Assembly: GCF_020884755.1 (NCBI RefSeq)
Contig: NZ_BPWE01000001.1
Coordinates: 1-64,000, forward strand
Length of the DNA: 64,000 nt
Direction: 5' to 3'
DNA from: Bifidobacterium mizhiense
GTDB lineage: Bacteria; Actinomycetota; Actinomycetes; Actinomycetales; Bifidobacteriaceae
Numbering within the stretch: the first letter of the stretch is position 1; each line of letters begins with the position of its first letter. Made by a program: the position numbers and the translations under genes. This document shows, one piece after another, positions 40,151 through 53,838 of this stretch. Under the pieces are notes generated by a model, which was not told where the DNA came from, did not search any database, and saw nothing but the letters and a program-made list of their open reading frames with translations.

Positions 40151-40215
40151 GCCGATTCTTATATTCTCGGCGGGCGCAGCGCAGCGGCCGCCGAATGCAA
40201 ACCCAAGGAGGGGTT

Positions 40216-41559
40216 ATGCAATCGCCAACCTTTCATCTGTTCAAACTGCACGCACAGGAATTGGATGATGGATACCTGGACAGGACGCCAATGCTCCAGT
40301 ACATCCTCCTCTCCTGCCTATTTCCCCTTTGGGGAGCAGCCGCCAGTCTCAATGACATACTCATAACCCAATTCAAAACCATCTTCACGCTGTCCAATGT
40401 TGCCAGCGCCTTTGTGCAGACGGCCTTCTATCTTGGCTATTTTCTGATTGCCATACCGGCTTCGCTCATCATCAAGAAGACCTCATACAAGGTCGCCATC
40501 ATGATCGGCCTTTCGCTGTACACCATCGGATGCTCAATCTTCTTCCCAGCCTCGCGCATGGCCACCTATGGATTCTTCCTGATTGCCCTGTTCGCCTTGG
40601 CCTGCGGCTTGAGCTTCCTGGAGACCTCGGCCAACACCTTCAGCTCACTGATGGGCCCGAAGAAGTATTCCACCCTGCGGTTGAACATCTCTGAAACCTT
40701 TTACCCGTTGGGTGCCATAGCCGGCATACTACTGGGCAAATATCTGATCTTCGGTGCCGGCCAAAGCCTGGAAAGGCAGATGAAGGGACTTCACGGACAG
40801 GCCCGCATCGCCTTCGGCGAGCGCGCCCTTCAGCATACGCTGCTGCCTTACAAATACATCATCTTCGTCCTCTTGGTCGCCCTGGTGCTTTTTGCGCTGA
40901 CGTAATTCCCCTCAGGCAAGCCCAAGGTGGATCCGACCAAACAGCAGCCTCAGGCGCGCATCGGTGAGACACTGGTCTATCTCGCGCATAACCGCCGCTT
41001 CCTTTGGGGCATTTTCACCGAGTTCATGTATGTGGGCATGCAGACGGCCGTGTGGTCCTTCACCATCAGGTTGGCCATGGAGCTCAATTCCTCGATCAAC
41101 GAACGCTCGGCATCGACCTTCATGGTCTACAGCTACGCCGCTTTCTTCATAGGCAAGGTTATTGCCAACTTCATGATGAAGTCCATGCACCCCGCCCGGG
41201 TCCTGCAGTGGTTCTCGGCATTCGGACTGGCTGCCTTGGTCTACATCCTCCTGCTGCGCAACATGAGCGCCGTCTATGCGGCCATCATCGTCTCGGGCCT
41301 GTTCGGACCCTGCTGGGCCACCATCTACTCCCAGACCTTGGATACGGTGACCGACAAACGCCACACGGAAACAGCGGGAGCCATCATCGTCATGTCCATT
41401 GTGGGCGGGGCCTTCATCCCAGTAGCGCAAGGATTCGTCGCGGACATCTCGAACATGTCCCTGTCCTTCCTGGTCGATGTGATCTGCTTCGCGGTCGTCT
41501 GCGTTTATTCCACAGCAAAAATGCGCGCTTTCAAGGCTGAAGGCGCTCGAGAAAACTAA
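40216..41559 (+). pseudogene. deoP: FucP/DeoP-like MFS sugar permease interrupted by an in-frame TAA
   Basis: One continuous frame encodes a FHS-family sugar:proton symporter of about 446 residues with 12 membrane segments, but codon 230 is TAA (40903-40905). The first half holds segments 1-6 (LWGAAASLNDILITQFK near residue 32, SLIIKKTSYK near 84) and the second half segments 7-12 from RIGETLVYLAHNRRF. Both halves are in the same frame and well preserved, so a single base change explains the break. The stop lies at the inter-domain loop after segment 6. AAGGAGGGG supports the ATG at 40216. A permease of this family (DeoP) sits with deoxyribokinase in Salmonella. Read-through or independent re-initiation at 40927 cannot be excluded. 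Confidence 0.8.
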
Positions 41560-44690: not shown

Positions 44691-45719
44691 TCAAGCCTCC
44701 AGAGCTCGCGCTCCCAGGAGTGCCTGCTCAGCAGCCATGGGAACTCGTCCCAATCCATCCAGACCGACGTTGAGCAGGTAGTTGATGCCGTACTTATTCA
44801 GATGGGCCTTGTAATCGTGAATGGTCTGCGGGCTCTTCCAATTTTGGTCATGATAGGAGAATCCCCAAGAATCGTTGATGGTACCAGCGGTCTCGTAAAG
44901 ACCAAGCTTTGAGGGCTTGAATCCTTCGATCGAGTTGTAATCGACATTCCCATCCGAAGCGGCCTTGTCGCTGGCGTCCGAGTCTTCTGGAATCTCGTTG
45001 TCCCCCAAAGAGACATAGTCGTAGCGGCCGTTGCCCAGCCTGGAATTGATCAGGCAGTCGGGCTGCAGGCGTTTGACCGTATCGTAAATGGTCTGGCTCT
45101 GCACGTCGCTGAGGGTCATGGGAACATCAAACCAGGCAACCGAGATCTCTCCATAGTTGCTCATGATCTCTTCGATCTGCGGCATGATCTTATGCTCGAA
45201 CGCCCGGTCGTAGTTCTTCTCCCCTGTGAAGTCCCAGCTGTTGTCCCAGGTGGTGCCCGCCGTCTCGATGTCGTTCGAGAGGTATCCGCCGCCATCCGGT
45301 TCATGCCAGTCCAGGTCCTGCGAATAGTAGAGACCAAATCGCAGGCCAGCCTTGCGGCAGGCCAAAGACAGCTCGCCGATCACATCCCTGTGGAAGGGCG
45401 TCGCGTCGTAGACATTGTAAGGATCCACCAGCGACCGGTACATGGCAAAGCCGTCATGGTGCTTTGTGGTGACGACCAGGTACTGCATGCCGCAGCGCTT
45501 GGCCAGATCAACTATGGCATCCGCGTCGAAATAAATGGGGTTGAAGGCCTGGGTCAGGCGTTCGTACTCCTTGTTGGGGATCTGGAGCTTGGATTGGATC
45601 CATTCCGCATAGTTGCTAGACGACTTCCCCTGGTACTCCCCTCCCAGGAGTGAATAGAGACCCCAGTGAATCATCATTCCGTACTTGGCCTGCTTGAACC
45701 ATGCCACGGTATCGCTCAT
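44691..45719 (-). CDS. alfC: GH29 alpha-L-fucosidase, AlfC-type (intracellular)
   Basis: A 342-residue glycoside hydrolase family 29 enzyme without signal peptide or extra domains. TTKHHDGFAMY near residue 84 is the family signature. Asp198 in VAWFDVPMT is the expected nucleophile and Asp240 in SLGDNEIP the expected acid/base. Both match, with a two-residue offset, the Asp200/Asp242 pair recalled for Lactobacillus casei AlfC, an alpha-1,6-fucosidase. Long stretches (FKQAKYGMMIHWGLYSLL, ETAGTINDSWGFSYHDQNW) also agree with AlfC. AGAGG supports the start. It lies 47 bp downstream of an MFS permease, the same pairing as alfHC. Cytoplasmic release of L-fucose from an imported glycoconjugate is inferred. 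Confidence 0.9.
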   Translation of the reverse strand: MSDTVAWFKQAKYGMMIHWGLYSLLGGEYQGKSSSNYAEWIQSKLQIPNKEYERLTQAFNPIYFDADAIVDLAKRCGMQYLVVTTKHHDGFAMYRSLVDPYNVYDATPFHRDVIGELSLACRKAGLRFGLYYSQDLDWHEPDGGGYLSNDIETAGTTWDNSWDFTGEKNYDRAFEHKIMPQIEEIMSNYGEISVAWFDVPMTLSDVQSQTIYDTVKRLQPDCLINSRLGNGRYDYVSLGDNEIPEDSDASDKAASDGNVDYNSIEGFKPSKLGLYETAGTINDSWGFSYHDQNWKSPQTIHDYKAHLNKYGINYLLNVGLDGLGRVPMAAEQALLGARALEA

Positions 45720-45766
45720 TATTTACCTCTGTTTCTGTTGATTGACACGAGTTGCAATGACCACTC

Positions 45767-46966
45767 TCAGATGGTCAGCTTGTCCTTCTTGACGACGAAG
45801 GCATCGTAAAGGGCCAGAATCACGTAGCAGATTCCTGCACACATGATCATGAAACCTGGGTCTTTATTGCCAAGCACCCCGCCCAAAGCTTGGAAGAAGT
45901 AGGGAGCCACCAGGGAGCCGACGTTGATGCCGATGAGGATGATCGAAGTGGTCAGATTCATGGAGCCCTTGGGCGAATAGGCCACCATGCGGGCAGTCAG
46001 AGCCGGATTGATGATGCCATTGCAGAACCCCGCCACCAGGACCAGAACCAGCAAGATCGGAATGGAGTTGGTGAAGGGCATGGCGATCATGACCACTGCC
46101 GTCAGCACCTCGAAGATGAAGACAGTGTATCGTCCGCACCACTTGGCGAGCTGTTCGAAAGCGATGCCTGAGATAATCGAGCAAAGTACCAGGAAACCGA
46201 AGATCCTGGTGGCATCGGCTGCAGAGCCTATGTGTGAATCGACCATATGGCTGGCCAGTTTCAGGGAGATAGCCGAGTAAAAGAGGCAGACGAAGAGGAA
46301 GAGGATAGCCAGCTGGATGACACCACCGTTGGTGGACGGCTTGATGGAGGTGTCCTCCTCGACCTCCTTGCCGTCCTCCACGATGACTCGGTCAAGCCGC
46401 TTGGGGACGAAAAGGGAGACGAGGACGATTGGCACGATCAGGAAGAGGAAGACCAGGTAAGTGGCATGCCAGGAGATGTTGATCAGGAATCCTGCAATGA
46501 AGAGCATGATCGAATCGCCGATGGCACCGACGGAGTTCCTCCAACCCAGGAGCCTGTTCCTTATTTTCTCAGGGAAGACATCAGTGATGTAGGAGACGCT
46601 CAGCGGGGTGAAGATGCCCATGCCCACGCCGAACATGGCTCTCGACAGGAAAATGGCCGGGTAGTTGTAGAAGAAGGCGGGGATGACTCCGAAGACCAAG
46701 GAGACTATCAATCCCAGAAGGACCGTGTACTTCTTGCCCAGCTTGTTGGATATCAGGCCGCTGACCACAGTTCCCAGCAGGACGCCTCCCGTGGGAATGA
46801 CGACCAACAGCTCGACGTTGGCCTCCGAGATGTTGGAAAAGTACTGCTTCATCAACGGGATTGTCCCTGATACGGCATTGGAAACCGACATCAGGAACGA
46901 TATGGACAAGATGCCCAACATCAAAATCGGTGAGCTGGTGTTCACCTGTTTCTCTTTTGACTCCAT
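45767..46966 (-). CDS. alfH: MFS transporter, AlfH-like glycoconjugate permease
   Basis: A permease of about 399 residues with 12 hydrophobic segments and the motif A-like loop ISNKLGKKYT near residue 75. A charged central loop (KRLDRVIVEDGKEVEEDTS, near 190) separates the two halves. The frame is open to 47041, but the ATG at 46966 has AGGAAGGG eight bases upstream. It precedes the fucosidase in one operon and faces a divergent glycosylasparaginase gene, so it may import fucosyl-GlcNAc-asparagine or a related fucosylated compound. The substrate is inferred from neighbours. Confidence 0.8.
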   Translation of the reverse strand: MESKEKQVNTSSPILMLGILSISFLMSVSNAVSGTIPLMKQYFSNISEANVELLVVIPTGGVLLGTVVSGLISNKLGKKYTVLLGLIVSLVFGVIPAFFYNYPAIFLSRAMFGVGMGIFTPLSVSYITDVFPEKIRNRLLGWRNSVGAIGDSIMLFIAGFLINISWHATYLVFLFLIVPIVLVSLFVPKRLDRVIVEDGKEVEEDTSIKPSTNGGVIQLAILFLFVCLFYSAISLKLASHMVDSHIGSAADATRIFGFLVLCSIISGIAFEQLAKWCGRYTVFIFEVLTAVVMIAMPFTNSIPILLVLVLVAGFCNGIINPALTARMVAYSPKGSMNLTTSIILIGINVGSLVAPYFFQALGGVLGNKDPGFMIMCAGICYVILALYDAFVVKKDKLTI

Positions 46967-47073
46967 GAAAGTCCCTTCCTCGGAACTGTCATCGCATTCG
47001 CATTTACGATGGCGAGTGATTGATTCACTCATGTACTGCAAACAACTTGATTCAATGGACCATCTTGGTCCCG

Positions 47074-47096
47074 AACTATTTCAATAGATAATAGTT
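47074..47096. promoter_or_regulatory. AT-rich inverted repeat, candidate operator of the alfHC-like operon
   Basis: AACTATT and AATAGTT form a perfect 7-bp inverted repeat with a 9-bp spacer, followed by a third AATAGT. It is 108 bp upstream of the permease start. Confidence 0.45.
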
Positions 47097-47149
47097 TGTT
47101 AATAGTATATATCAAATTGGAAACTGTACATGCCGAAGATGGTGCGTCA

Positions 47150-47162
47150 GGCCGAATCGGCC
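47150..47162. promoter_or_regulatory. GGCCGA-A-TCGGCC palindrome
   Basis: A perfect 13-bp palindrome with a central A, midway in the divergent gap. It may be an operator. No binder can be named. Confidence 0.4.
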
Positions 47163-47353
47163 GGATCTGCCATACAGCGATCACCAAACGAATTGTTGAA
47201 ACTCGGCCTTTTATGTCAGCCTTAAGGGATGTACGCAAAAGCTAACGCCGATAAAGCAATTGGAACGCTGGCAAGACATTCCGAAACAAAAGTATCTTTA
47301 TTAATTATCATTGACAGAAGAGATAAGGCAGAGGACATCGTTGCTGTCTGCAT

Positions 47354-47372
47354 GCGGGCGAGGTAAGCCCGC
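47354..47372. other. Small GC hairpin in the glycosylasparaginase leader
   Basis: GCGGGC and GCCCGC flank GAGGTAA, giving a perfect 6-bp stem just upstream of the larger hairpin. Confidence 0.4.
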
Positions 47373-47393
47373 TACTGACGGCTGTCCCCTCAG

Positions 47394-47447
47394 GAGCAGG
47401 GTCCATCAGCTCGATCATTCATCGACCGGCTGAGGTCTCGCCTGCTC
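47394..47447 (+). ncRNA. Long structured hairpin in the probable 5' leader of the glycosylasparaginase gene
   Basis: The outer stem GAGCAGG/CCTGCTC encloses a second long arm: CCATCAGC pairs with GGCTGAGG with one bulge, and TCGAT pairs with ATCGA around a CATTC loop. In all, about 18 base pairs form one extended stem, followed by TTCTGCTTTAAAACAG. It lies 73 bp upstream of the start codon. It matches no riboswitch consensus I recognise and lacks the T-box AGGGTGG motif. It may be a leader regulator, a small RNA or a terminator of an unseen transcript. Confidence 0.45.
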
Positions 47448-47520
47448 TTCTGCTTTAAAACAGTTTCTGTGCTCCACCCAAGAGCAGTCAACGACCGCAC
47501 CGACAGAAAGAACCAAGGAA

Positions 47521-48516
47521 ATGAGTGATTCATCCCCACAGATAGTCAGCCACGATCAGTCCACCTGGGCATCCATTGCTACATGGCGGATGGCCTATGA
47601 AGGGATGGTCAAGTCAAGTTCCGGTCTTGAGGAGGGTGGCCAGGCGGGTGATGCTGTCGAGGCGCTGATCCGAGAGGTTGAAGCCAACCCCGATTACACC
47701 TCCGTCGGTTATGGAGCTTTGCCCAACCGGGAAGGTGAGATGGAGATGGACGCCGCCTTCATGGACGGGAACAGCATGGCAATGGGCGCTGTGGCCGGCA
47801 TCCAGCATGTGCTCCACCCCATATCCGTGGCCAGACGGCTGAGCCGACGCCATACCAGCAGCTTTCTGGTCGGGCAGGGGGCGACCCGTTACGCCCAGGT
47901 CAGCGGGTTCGAAATGCGCAATATGCTGACGGACAGGGCCAGAAAGCGTTGGGAGTTGGAAGCCGCCAAGACCACGACACCGGAGTCTGCCGGCCCCTAT
48001 CGAGGGCACGATACGGTCGGGGCCATCTCCTTGGATGCACACGGTTCGATGGCTGCCGGTACATCAACATCGGGGCTCTTCATGAAGGAACCTGGCAGAG
48101 TAGGCGATTCTCCCCTACCCGGCTCGGGCTTTTATGTGGACAGCACCATCGGAGGGGCGGCCGCCACCGGGCTGGGAGAAGACATCATGAAAGGGTGCCT
48201 CTCCTATCGGATCGTTGCCCTTATGGGAAGTGGATTGACCCCTCAGGAGGCCTGCGATACTGCAGTCTACGGATTTGACGACCTCCTGAGGAACCGCTAC
48301 GGCAAGGTCGGCGAGATCTCCATGATCGCACTCAACGCAAGAGGAGAATGGGGGGTCGCCACCAACGTGGAATTCACCTTCTGCACAGCCCAGAAGGGCG
48401 AGCCGATACGCATACTCATGGCCAATCCGGATGGCAAGGGCGGAACACGAATCGAACCAGTGACTAAGGAATGGCTGCAGGAATACGAACATTCATTGAA
48501 GGCGCCCATCAAATGA
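47521..48516 (+). CDS. asnA2: Glycosylasparaginase (aspartylglucosaminidase), Ntn-hydrolase
   Basis: A 331-residue Ntn-hydrolase of the isoaspartyl-peptidase/aspartylglucosaminidase family. The autoprocessing site is GHDTVGAISLD, with Thr165 as the N-terminal nucleophile after cleavage at Asp164. The following SMAAGTSTSG, GRVGDSPLPGSG and GGAAATGLGEDIM match human and Flavobacterium glycosylasparaginases, more than plain asparaginases, in which HGTVGAV is usual. It should cleave GlcNAc-Asn to aspartate and N-acetylglucosamine (first as the glycosylamine). No signal peptide is seen, so it acts in the cytoplasm. It is divergent from the fucosidase/permease operon. Confidence 0.9.
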   Translation: MSDSSPQIVSHDQSTWASIATWRMAYEGMVKSSSGLEEGGQAGDAVEALIREVEANPDYTSVGYGALPNREGEMEMDAAFMDGNSMAMGAVAGIQHVLHPISVARRLSRRHTSSFLVGQGATRYAQVSGFEMRNMLTDRARKRWELEAAKTTTPESAGPYRGHDTVGAISLDAHGSMAAGTSTSGLFMKEPGRVGDSPLPGSGFYVDSTIGGAAATGLGEDIMKGCLSYRIVALMGSGLTPQEACDTAVYGFDDLLRNRYGKVGEISMIALNARGEWGVATNVEFTFCTAQKGEPIRILMANPDGKGGTRIEPVTKEWLQEYEHSLKAPIK

Positions 48517-48550: not shown

Positions 48551-48565
48551 GCTATCTTGACGGGC

Positions 48566-48991
48566 ATGGGTCGCAAGAGAAGTTTCGATGATGATGAGGT
48601 ACTTGCCCGCGCCCGCGAGGTTTTCCTGGAGCATGGCTATGAGGGAACGTCGATTGATGCTCTCGTCAAGGCCACGGGTCTGCTCCGGGGCAGTCTCTAC
48701 GGTGCCTTCGGCAGCAAGCGTGGCATGTTCGTGGCTGCGCTCCGTGATGCAACGGATTCTGGGTCGGGCGATTCAGGAGTGCTCAATCTGGTATTGGTGG
48801 CACTCATGGAGCTGTCAGATCATGATCTTGAGGTTCGTGGGCTGGTCAGGGATTACCTTGCGAAGCTGTCCAGCTCGGGATCTGACGATACCAACGCTGT
48901 GGCCCTTGATATCGCCACGCTCCTTGGCGAGACGCTACTGCAGCGTGCACATATTCGGTTGCAGTCTGATGATGAAAGAAGCGAGTCATGA
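48566..48991 (+). CDS. Short TetR-family transcriptional regulator
   Basis: A regulator of 141 residues (144 if a TTG at 48557 is used). The N-terminal helix-turn-helix is clear (VLARAREVFLEHGYEGTSID, then LLRGSLYGAFGSKRGMFVAAL). The ligand domain is much shorter than the usual ~140 residues, a compact form rather than an obvious truncation. It overlaps the next gene by 4 bp (ATGA). It may regulate itself and the adjacent glycosylasparaginase region, but that is a guess. Confidence 0.8.
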   Translation: MGRKRSFDDDEVLARAREVFLEHGYEGTSIDALVKATGLLRGSLYGAFGSKRGMFVAALRDATDSGSGDSGVLNLVLVALMELSDHDLEVRGLVRDYLAKLSSSGSDDTNAVALDIATLLGETLLQRAHIRLQSDDERSES

Positions 48992-51363: not shown

Positions 51364-53838
51364 ATGACGAATCCTGTTATCGGCACCCCTTGGGCGAAGC
51401 TGGAGACCCCAATCGCCGAGGAGACCCTCGAGGCCGTCGACAAGTATTGGCGGGCGGCCAACTATCTTTCCATCGGACAGATTTATCTTCGCAGCAACCC
51501 CCTGATGAAGGAGCCCTTCACTCGGGAGGATGTCAAGCATCGTCTGGTCGGCCACTGGGGCACCACCCCCGGCCTGAACTTCCTGCTGGGCCATATCAAC
51601 CGTCTGATCGCCGACCATCAGCAGAACACCGTGATCATCATGGGCCCCGGCCACGGCGGCCCCGCCGGCACCTCGCAGTCCTACCTGGATGGCACCTACA
51701 GCGAGTACTACCCCAAGATCACCAACGATGAGGCTGGCCTGCAGAAGTTCTTCCGCCAGTTCTCCTACCCGGGCGGCATCCCCTCCCACTTCGCGCCTGA
51801 GACCCCCGGGTCCATCCACGAGGGCGGCGAGCTGGGCTATGCCCTCTCCCACGCTTATGGCGCCATCATGAACAACCCCAGCCTCTTCGTGCCCTGCATC
51901 GTGGGCGACGGCGAAGCCGAGACCGGCCCCCTGGCCACCGGCTGGCAGTCCAACAAGCTGGTCAACCCCCGCACCGACGGCATCGTCCTGCCCATCCTGC
52001 ACCTGAACGGCTACAAGATCGCCAACCCGACCATTCTCTCGCGCATCTCCGACGAAGAGCTGCATGAGTACTTCCATGGCATGGGTTATGAGCCCTTCGA
52101 GTTCGTTGCCGGATTCGACGACGAGGATCATCTGTCCATCCACCGTCGCTTCGCCGACATGCTGGAGACCGTCTTCGACAAGATCTGCGACATCAAGGCC
52201 CGGGCCGAAACCGACGACATGACTCGTCCCTTCTACCCCATGATCATCTTCCGCACCCCCAAGGGCTGGACCTGCCCCAAGTTCATCGACGGCAAGAAGA
52301 CCGAGGGATCCTGGCGCGCCCACCAGGTGCCGCTGACCTCCGCCCGCGACACCGAGGCTCACTTCCAGGTCCTCAAGAACTGGCTGGCCTCCTACAAGCC
52401 CCAGGAGCTTTTCGACGAGAAGGGCGCCCTGCGTCCCGAGGTCACCAGCTTCATGCCCAAGGGCGACCTGCGCATCGGCGAGAACCCCAACGCCAACGGC
52501 GGGCGTCTGCTCAAGCCGCTGGAGCTGCCTGACATCCACGACTACGAGATCGACGTCAAGAAGCACGGCCATGGCTGGGGCGCCACCGAGGCCACCCGCG
52601 TCCTGGGTTACTACACCCGCGACGTGCTGGCCAAGAACCCCACCGATTTCCGTATCTTCGGGCCTGACGAGACGGCCTCCAACCGTCTGGCTGCCGCCTA
52701 CGAAGTGACCAACAAGCAGTGGGATGCCGACTACCTGTCGGAGCTGACCGACGAGCACATGGCCCATACCGGCCAGGTCATCGAGCAGCTCTCCGAGCAC
52801 CAGATGGAAGGCTTCCTGGAGGGCTACCTGCTGACCGGACGCCACGGCATCTGGAGCTCCTACGAGTCCTTCGTGCACGTCATCGACTCCATGATCAACC
52901 AGCACGCCAAGTGGCTGGAGGCCACCGTCCGCGAGATCCCGTGGCGCAAGCCCATCGCCGGCCTGAACCTCCTGGTCACCTCGCACGTCTGGCGTCAGGA
53001 CCACAACGGGTTCTCCCACCAGGATCCCGGCTTCGTCGACATCCTGCTGAACAAGAACTTCAACAACGATCACGTGGTCAACATCTACTTCCCCGCCGAC
53101 GCCAACATGCTGCTGAACGTGGGCGAGCGTTGCTACAAGTCGACCAACTGCATCAACGCCATCTTCGCCGGCAAGCAGCCTGCCGCCACCTACCAGAGCG
53201 TGGACGAGGCCGCCGCCGAGCTGGAGAAGGGGGCCGCCCGCTGGGATTGGGCCTCCAACGCCAAGGATGCCGAGGATGCTGATGTCGTCATCGCCACCGC
53301 AGGCGACATCCCCACCCAGGAGGCCCTGGCCGCCGACGACATGCTGCAGAAGCTGGGCCTCAAGGTCCAGTTCGTCAACGTGGTCGACCTGCTGAAGATC
53401 CAGGACACCGAGGAGAACGATCAGGCCCTGTCCGACGAGGAGTTCACCAAGCTCTTCAGCAAGGACAAGCCGGTCCTGTTCGCCTTCCACGCCTACCCCG
53501 GCTCCATCTACCGCCTGATCCACGGACGTCCCAACCACGACAACTTCTCCGTGCACGGCTACGAGGAGCAGGGCTCCACCACCACGCCGTTCGACATGGT
53601 GCGCGTCAACAACATGGACCGCTGGTGCCTGGCCGCCTCCGCCCTGAAGCTGGTGGACGCCGGCAAGTACGCCGACCAGATCGACAAGTGGACCAAGTTC
53701 CGCGACGAGGCCTTCCAGTTCGCAGTGGACAAGGGCTACGACCACCCCGATTACACCGATTGGGTCTGGCCCGATGCCAACCGCGCCGGCCAGGAGACCA
53801 TCTCCGCCACCGCCGCGACCGCCGGAGACAACGAGTGA
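51364..53838 (+). CDS. xfp: Xylulose-5-phosphate/fructose-6-phosphate phosphoketolase
   Basis: An 824-residue thiamine-diphosphate enzyme that splits fructose-6-phosphate or xylulose-5-phosphate with phosphate into acetyl-phosphate plus a shorter sugar phosphate. It is the key step of the bifid shunt. [24 protein letters not shown] (around residues 98-121, cited by its ends) and the TPP motif [18 protein letters not shown] near residue 180 are diagnostic, and [17 protein letters not shown]-type residues occur near 540. Codon use is strongly biased to G/C-ending optimal codons, as expected of a highly expressed gene. It is followed by a strong terminator. Confidence 0.99.

Follow-up and report, generated by a model that had tools for sequence, protein, structure and literature searches.

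We analysed a window of 64,000 nt of Bifidobacterium mizhiense DNA (assembly GCF_020884755.1, contig NZ_BPWE01000001.1, positions 1-64,000, forward strand), in which three neighbouring genes correspond to the Lactobacillus alf-2 genes alfC (GH29 alpha-L-fucosidase), alfH (permease of the major facilitator superfamily, MFS) and asnA2 (glycosylasparaginase). The locus is very probably the bee-bifidobacterial form of alf-2, derived from Lactobacillaceae, and would import and dismantle the core-fucose stubs that remain when animal glycoproteins are digested. The existence of a reduced alf-2 pathway in this genome, as originally predicted, is well supported because the genes are intact and orthologous to alf-2, the fucosidase is nearly identical to a crystallised enzyme (PDB 8P1S) and the hydrolase matches glycosylasparaginases. 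The locus itself has already been described; what is new here is the pattern of its loss and a candidate operator.

Gene content and relation to Lactobacillus alf-2

All three open reading frames (ORFs) on which the original prediction was based are open and intact (Table 1). Their Pfam scores lie far over the cut-offs (Alpha_L_fucos, PF01120, 211.6 bits; MFS_1, 120; Asparaginase_2, 230), and the pairwise ratios of nonsynonymous to synonymous substitution (dN/dS) between the window and its relatives are 0.015-0.069 for alfC and alfH and 0.095-0.132 for asnA, low values which argue that these are not chance ORFs. Relatives are cited below by genome (G) or fetched locus (L) number: G004 is B. 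apousia W8102, G008 B. asteroides ESL0199, G010 B. asteroides VRA_9sq_n, G022 B. polysaccharolyticum W8117, G025 B. sp. B4142 and G026 B. xylocopae XV2.

Table 1. Coordinates of the genes and sites discussed (window positions unless a locus is named)
Feature	Position	Strand	Remarks
alfC orthologue, GH29 alpha-1,6-L-fucosidase	44691..45719	-	342 aa; nucleophile Asp198, acid/base Asp240, Tyr37
alfH orthologue, MFS permease	45767..46966	-	likely start ATG 46966, 399 aa; ORF open to TTG 47041
asnA2 orthologue, glycosylasparaginase	47521..48516	+	331 aa; predicted self-cleavage before Thr165; cytoplasmic location inferred
Inverted repeat AACTATT-N9-AATAGTT, candidate operator	47074..47096	.	overlaps -10-like hexamer
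Promoter-like site 5' of alfH, TTGATA-16-TATTAT	47088..47115	-	consensus scan 10/12
Degenerate copy TAGTATATATCA (10/12) of TAGTATATACTA, possible vestige of an AlfR2 operator	47103..47114	.	adjoins inverted repeat
TAGTATATACTA occurrences	L037 4945; L040 8418, 8635; L044 6867; L047 6624		

The alfH gene immediately precedes alfC on the same strand, as had been noted, and the asnA2 orthologue diverges from alfH. The permease had been started at TTG 47041, and here a correction is needed, since its start is probably the ATG: a GGAAGGG stretch lies just 5' of this codon, ATG or GTG occupies the position in all five aligned genomes of the B. asteroides group, and the longer reading, unlike the 399-residue one, is interrupted by a stop in G008 and G001.

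As reference for orthology we used the cluster of Lacticaseibacillus chiayiensis (L040) in place of L. casei AlfH and AsnA2. The comparison with alf-2 proteins that the original prediction had proposed bears it out, with identities of 78% to AlfC, 72.9% to AlfH (399 residues) and 64.4% to AsnA2. The layout of alfH-alfC with a divergent asnA2 is shared with L. casei BL23 (PMC6960285), from which the window differs in having no linked sugK, pepV or alfR2, its N-acetylglucosamine (GlcNAc) genes lying elsewhere in the genome. The absence of such companions had been stated before and holds in tblastn searches for three of them, since L. chiayiensis AlfR2, PepV and SugK have no match in the window; asdA, also named as missing, was not searched. 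In the whole genome the closest AlfR2-like protein is 28% identical and lies about 683 kb away on C1. According to PMC6960285, asdA is missing in L. rhamnosus and, as regards bifidobacteria, confined to B. magnum and B. gallicum, and bifidobacterial loci are called alf-2 clusters although no PepV was found in bifidobacteria; for this reason we regard the window's locus as a reduced alf-2 variant.

The claim that no such locus had been described in this lineage does not stand. The legend to Fig. 7 of Becerra et al. 2020 (PMC6960285) assigns alf-2 clusters to B. asteroides Bin2 and B. actinocoloniiforme DSM 22766, which belong to the same lineage; in so far as the legend and the Discussion describe them, the clusters are of the same kind. 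A B. asteroides fucosidase of this type has also been characterised (PMC11189522). Becerra et al. also report that the nearest alfC homologues come from bifidobacteria of Hymenoptera, that B. actinocoloniiforme, B. asteroides and B. xylocopae are the sole bifidobacteria with AsnA2 homologues, and that all three genes probably moved from Lactobacillus to bifidobacteria. Our AlfC tree, made from 39 hand-chosen loci of the 80 fetched together with the window, G001 and 6O18, agrees with this transfer: the bifidobacterial rows are nested in an otherwise Lactobacillaceae clade with support 95/94, in a tree flagged for two long branches that join at its root rows (L078, L090) and for the odd composition of L038. 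In two Companilactobacillus loci (L041, L042) the gene order is different, asnA2 being co-directional with alfH-alfC, and no AlfR2 match was found in the fetched stretch.

The enzymes and the proposed pathway

The fucosidase shares 335 of its 342 residues, including the catalytic pair, with PDB 8P1S, a crystal structure entitled 'Bifidobacterium asteroides alpha-L-fucosidase (TT1819)', from which it differs by seven substitutions. Its identity to AlfC (PDB 6O18) is 78% (263/337), and the two-residue offset originally proposed is right, Asp198, Asp240 and Tyr37 aligning with AlfC Asp200, Asp242 and Tyr37. By sequence and by these catalytic residues, which are those of AlfC and of the B. asteroides enzyme, it belongs to the AlfC-type GH29 alpha-1,6-fucosidases (sequence similarity network cluster 26). 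The B. asteroides enzyme BaGH29-26A prefers alpha-1,6 linkages and frees fucose from the free glycan FA2G2 (PMC11189522), so that the linkage assay once suggested for the window's fucosidase has in effect been published for a near-identical protein, and the same alpha-1,6 specificity is predicted here. In the available text that paper deals with the enzyme alone and not with its locus; it describes one structure with fucose and one of a nucleophile mutant, and from these matching descriptions we infer that they are 8P1S and 8P1R, the name TT1819 not occurring in its text.

The hydrolase carries the HDT site (H163-D164-T165) by which it had been recognised as a glycosylasparaginase; in alignment T165 corresponds to the N-terminal residue of that enzyme's beta-chain, and both the Asparaginase_2 (Ntn hydrolase) profile and the Thr nucleophile at the autocleavage site are present. 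Its best PDB matches in sequence and in fold are glycosylasparaginases, ahead of isoaspartyl peptidases, the fold matching having used a predicted structure with a mean pLDDT (predicted local distance difference test) of 67 and values below 50 at residues 185-222. With the Elizabethkingia glycosylasparaginase (PDB 1P4K, 1AYY) it shares the fold and the Thr nucleophile at 33-35% identity over a whole-chain fold alignment. Its Trp22, which aligns with Trp11 of that enzyme, is invariant in 13 of 13 aligned sequences, and, as a difference, no export signal is apparent at its N terminus, for which no dedicated test was made. Equivalents of the functional Elizabethkingia residues Trp11, Arg180, Asp183, Thr203 and Gly204 are all found in the hydrolase.

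The whole pathway has been demonstrated in L. casei (PMC6960285). In B. mizhiense AlfH would import core-fucose stubs, that is 6'-fucosyl-GlcNAc-Asn and perhaps other 6'-fucosyl sugars, AlfC would strip the alpha-1,6 fucose in the cytoplasm, and AsnA2 would split GlcNAc-Asn into aspartate and 1-amino-GlcNAc, the latter giving GlcNAc. A ROK-family kinase, NagA and NagB, encoded elsewhere, would then lead to fructose-6-phosphate and the bifid shunt. On a contig other than the window's, a 368-aa ROK-family ORF (PF00480 match), preceded by a 434-aa ORF, overlaps nagB and is followed by nagA (NagA 239.6 bits against a cut-off of 225.65, NagB 263.1 against 236.9), and the ROK protein is putatively the GlcNAc kinase. 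Fucose would probably leave the cell by export, since no fucose isomerase (PF02952) matched in the genome, other fucose routes not having been searched; L. casei ATCC 334 likewise lacks fuc genes according to PMC6960285. For this organism transport, GlcNAc-Asn cleavage, the identity of the kinase, flux and regulation are predictions.

Candidate operators

The 12-base perfect palindrome TAGTATATACTA occurs five times in alf-2 promoter regions of four Lactobacillaceae/Enterococcaceae loci (180 loci scanned): in the alfR2-alfH gap in L037 and L040, just 5' of asnA2 in L044 and just 5' of pepV in L047. Since it is rare by chance (0.04-0.23 expected in 80 fetched loci), lies in these promoter regions, and the L. 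chiayiensis AlfR2 combines a GntR with a UTRA domain, it is a good candidate for the AlfR2 operator in these families. Against this idea, L047 has the palindrome and no AlfR2 match in its stretch, L058 has an AlfR2 match and no copy closer than one mismatch, and the palindrome is absent from L041 and L042. The available main text of PMC6960285 does not mention an operator, palindrome, inverted repeat, binding site or promoter, and in the literature accessible to us the word AlfR2 was found elsewhere only in PMC12791066.

In the window, the inverted repeat and the degenerate copy of the palindrome both overlap the promoter-like site of alfH, which is weak evidence taken alone because five such sites were found in 5.1 kb against 3.3 expected. 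The inverted repeat is the single site with at most two mismatches in the 2.09 Mb genome; the B. apousia and B. asteroides ESL0199 loci have it unchanged, B4142 and G011 have altered versions, and there is one more match, in L045, far from alfC. The copy TAGTATATATCA was rejected as a proven operator, being not significant by itself (10 genome sites against 25 for a reversed control). Judging from sequence, both elements may bind a regulator. The TetR gene at 48557-48991 is unlikely to be a dedicated one, as six of the eight relatives without the full cluster keep it (G003, G007, G009, G010, G019 and G022). The fetched stretches of G012 and G020 show no copy of it, nor does that of B4142, where the alf-2 set is complete.

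Distribution, loss and alternative explanations

Among 27 genomes of the genus, alfC is full length in nine and broken in one, an alfH orthologue (at least 81% identity) is found in seven, and asnA is full or nearly full in eight and fragmentary in six. All three genes occur in seven genomes and are adjacent, with asnA divergent from alfH, in six; in G001 about 236 kb separate asnA from alfHC. Five of the 13 genomes of the B. asteroides group keep the whole set and eight are without one or more genes, a piece of asnA being the sole remnant in six of these eight. B. polysaccharolyticum W8117 (G022) retains asnA and alfC with a 46-residue tail of alfH, and G010 retains alfC with scraps of alfH and no asnA. 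Only a decayed asnA is left in G012 and G020, the same 69-residue scrap of it in G003, G007 and G019, and in G009 the first 33 residues of the gene for a short-chain dehydrogenase/reductase (SDR) abut the asnA end. As in the window, at least one of the SDR and tetR genes adjoins every remnant. The group is a clade in a single-gene xfp tree whose inner order is mostly unresolved, and for this reason the number of independent losses rests on the differing deletion end points. We found no paper on alf-2 loss among bee bifidobacteria in a literature search with thin coverage of subscription journals.

Loci L112-L117, L035 and L036, from B. asteroides-group relatives, show differing partial alf-2 deletions at a single site. 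A similar pair of 335-aa and 111-aa genes is found close to the asnA remnant of G003, G007 and G019 and also adjoins the full cluster in ESL0199 (L033 11260-12580). The asnA genes of G011 and G025 were considered as pseudogenes and rejected, because their stops, at residues 318 and 321 in G011 and at residue 321 in G025, only shorten the tail of a 331-residue protein. Outside the group, G018 has a broken alfC-like gene (L163 9874-10798, about 4.6 kb from guaA), piecewise about 43-69% identical to the window's and with several stops.

Several points weigh against a pathway for core-fucose stubs. The permease substrate is a prediction, substrate choice not being readable from sequence. BaGH29-26A was inactive on the glycan and glycoprotein of immunoglobulin G and on the N-glycan and glycoprotein of phospholipase A2, and the available text holds no assay of it on the fucosyl-GlcNAc-Asn glycoamino acid (PMC11189522). 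Both B. apousia strains of PMC12521233 are alpha-fucosidase negative by API ZYM, despite the alfC of B. apousia W8102. No GH85 endoglycosidase (PF03644) matched in the genome, other endoglycosidase families not having been searched, and therefore the stubs may have to be supplied by other organisms. Finally, a pathway missing in whole or in part from eight of 13 near relatives would seem to be dispensable.

It could be supposed that free 6'-fucosyl oligosaccharides (6'-fucosyl-GlcNAc, core-fucosylated chitobiose) are the main substrates of the locus, asnA being an incidental passenger, since in L. casei without alfR2 6'-fucosyl glycans are likewise transported by AlfH and hydrolysed by AlfC (PMC6960285), the window has no AlfR2 homologue and G010 keeps alfC without asnA. 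However, asnA is under purifying selection, its divergent position recurs in six genomes, it stays with alfC in G022 where alfH is a scrap, and its pieces outlast both other genes in six genomes, so that we consider this explanation unlikely. Slightly less probable still is a silent or vanishing locus, a transferred module that lacks its regulator and is disappearing across bee bifidobacteria; the losses with different end points, the missing AlfR2 homologue and an operator-like site that is only degenerate agree with it, but the three window genes are intact and under purifying selection. An isoaspartyl peptidase or plant-type asparaginase unconnected to glycan use is a very improbable identity for the hydrolase: the superfamily is the same and an NCBIfam beta-aspartyl-peptidase model matches (125.9 bits, yet against a cut-off of 567), whereas the best matches, the invariant Trp22 and the identity to AsnA2 all favour a glycosylasparaginase.

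Beside the locus, the gene at 51364-53838 is presumably a phosphoketolase. At 40195-41559 (+) a FucP-family MFS permease is broken by an in-frame stop and lies in a deoC/DUF4432/ribokinase-like cluster, perhaps for deoxyribose use; a conserved two-piece transporter was rejected, since none of the five compared relatives has a stop at that position.

To a specialist the locus as such is unsurprising; it extends to bee-gut bifidobacteria a pathway originally elucidated in L. casei. Insect N-glycans can bear core alpha-1,6 fucose, first found on bee-venom glycoproteins (PMC6935376). The patchy loss among close relatives offers a natural comparison for how host glycans are used in the bee gut. It could be viewed together with the strain differences of PMC12521233, where four of nine bee isolates were alpha-fucosidase positive, the genomes of those strains lying outside the present comparison. 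Tentatively, and with slightly less than even confidence, we propose that alf-2 of bee-gut bifidobacteria has been freed from the repressor AlfR2, for which TAGTATATACTA would be the operator in Lactobacillaceae/Enterococcaceae, has kept a degenerate operator and has been lost repeatedly at one site. If this is true, neighbouring species would therefore differ in their use of core-fucose stubs, with partial states that have alfC alone, or alfC and asnA without the permease.

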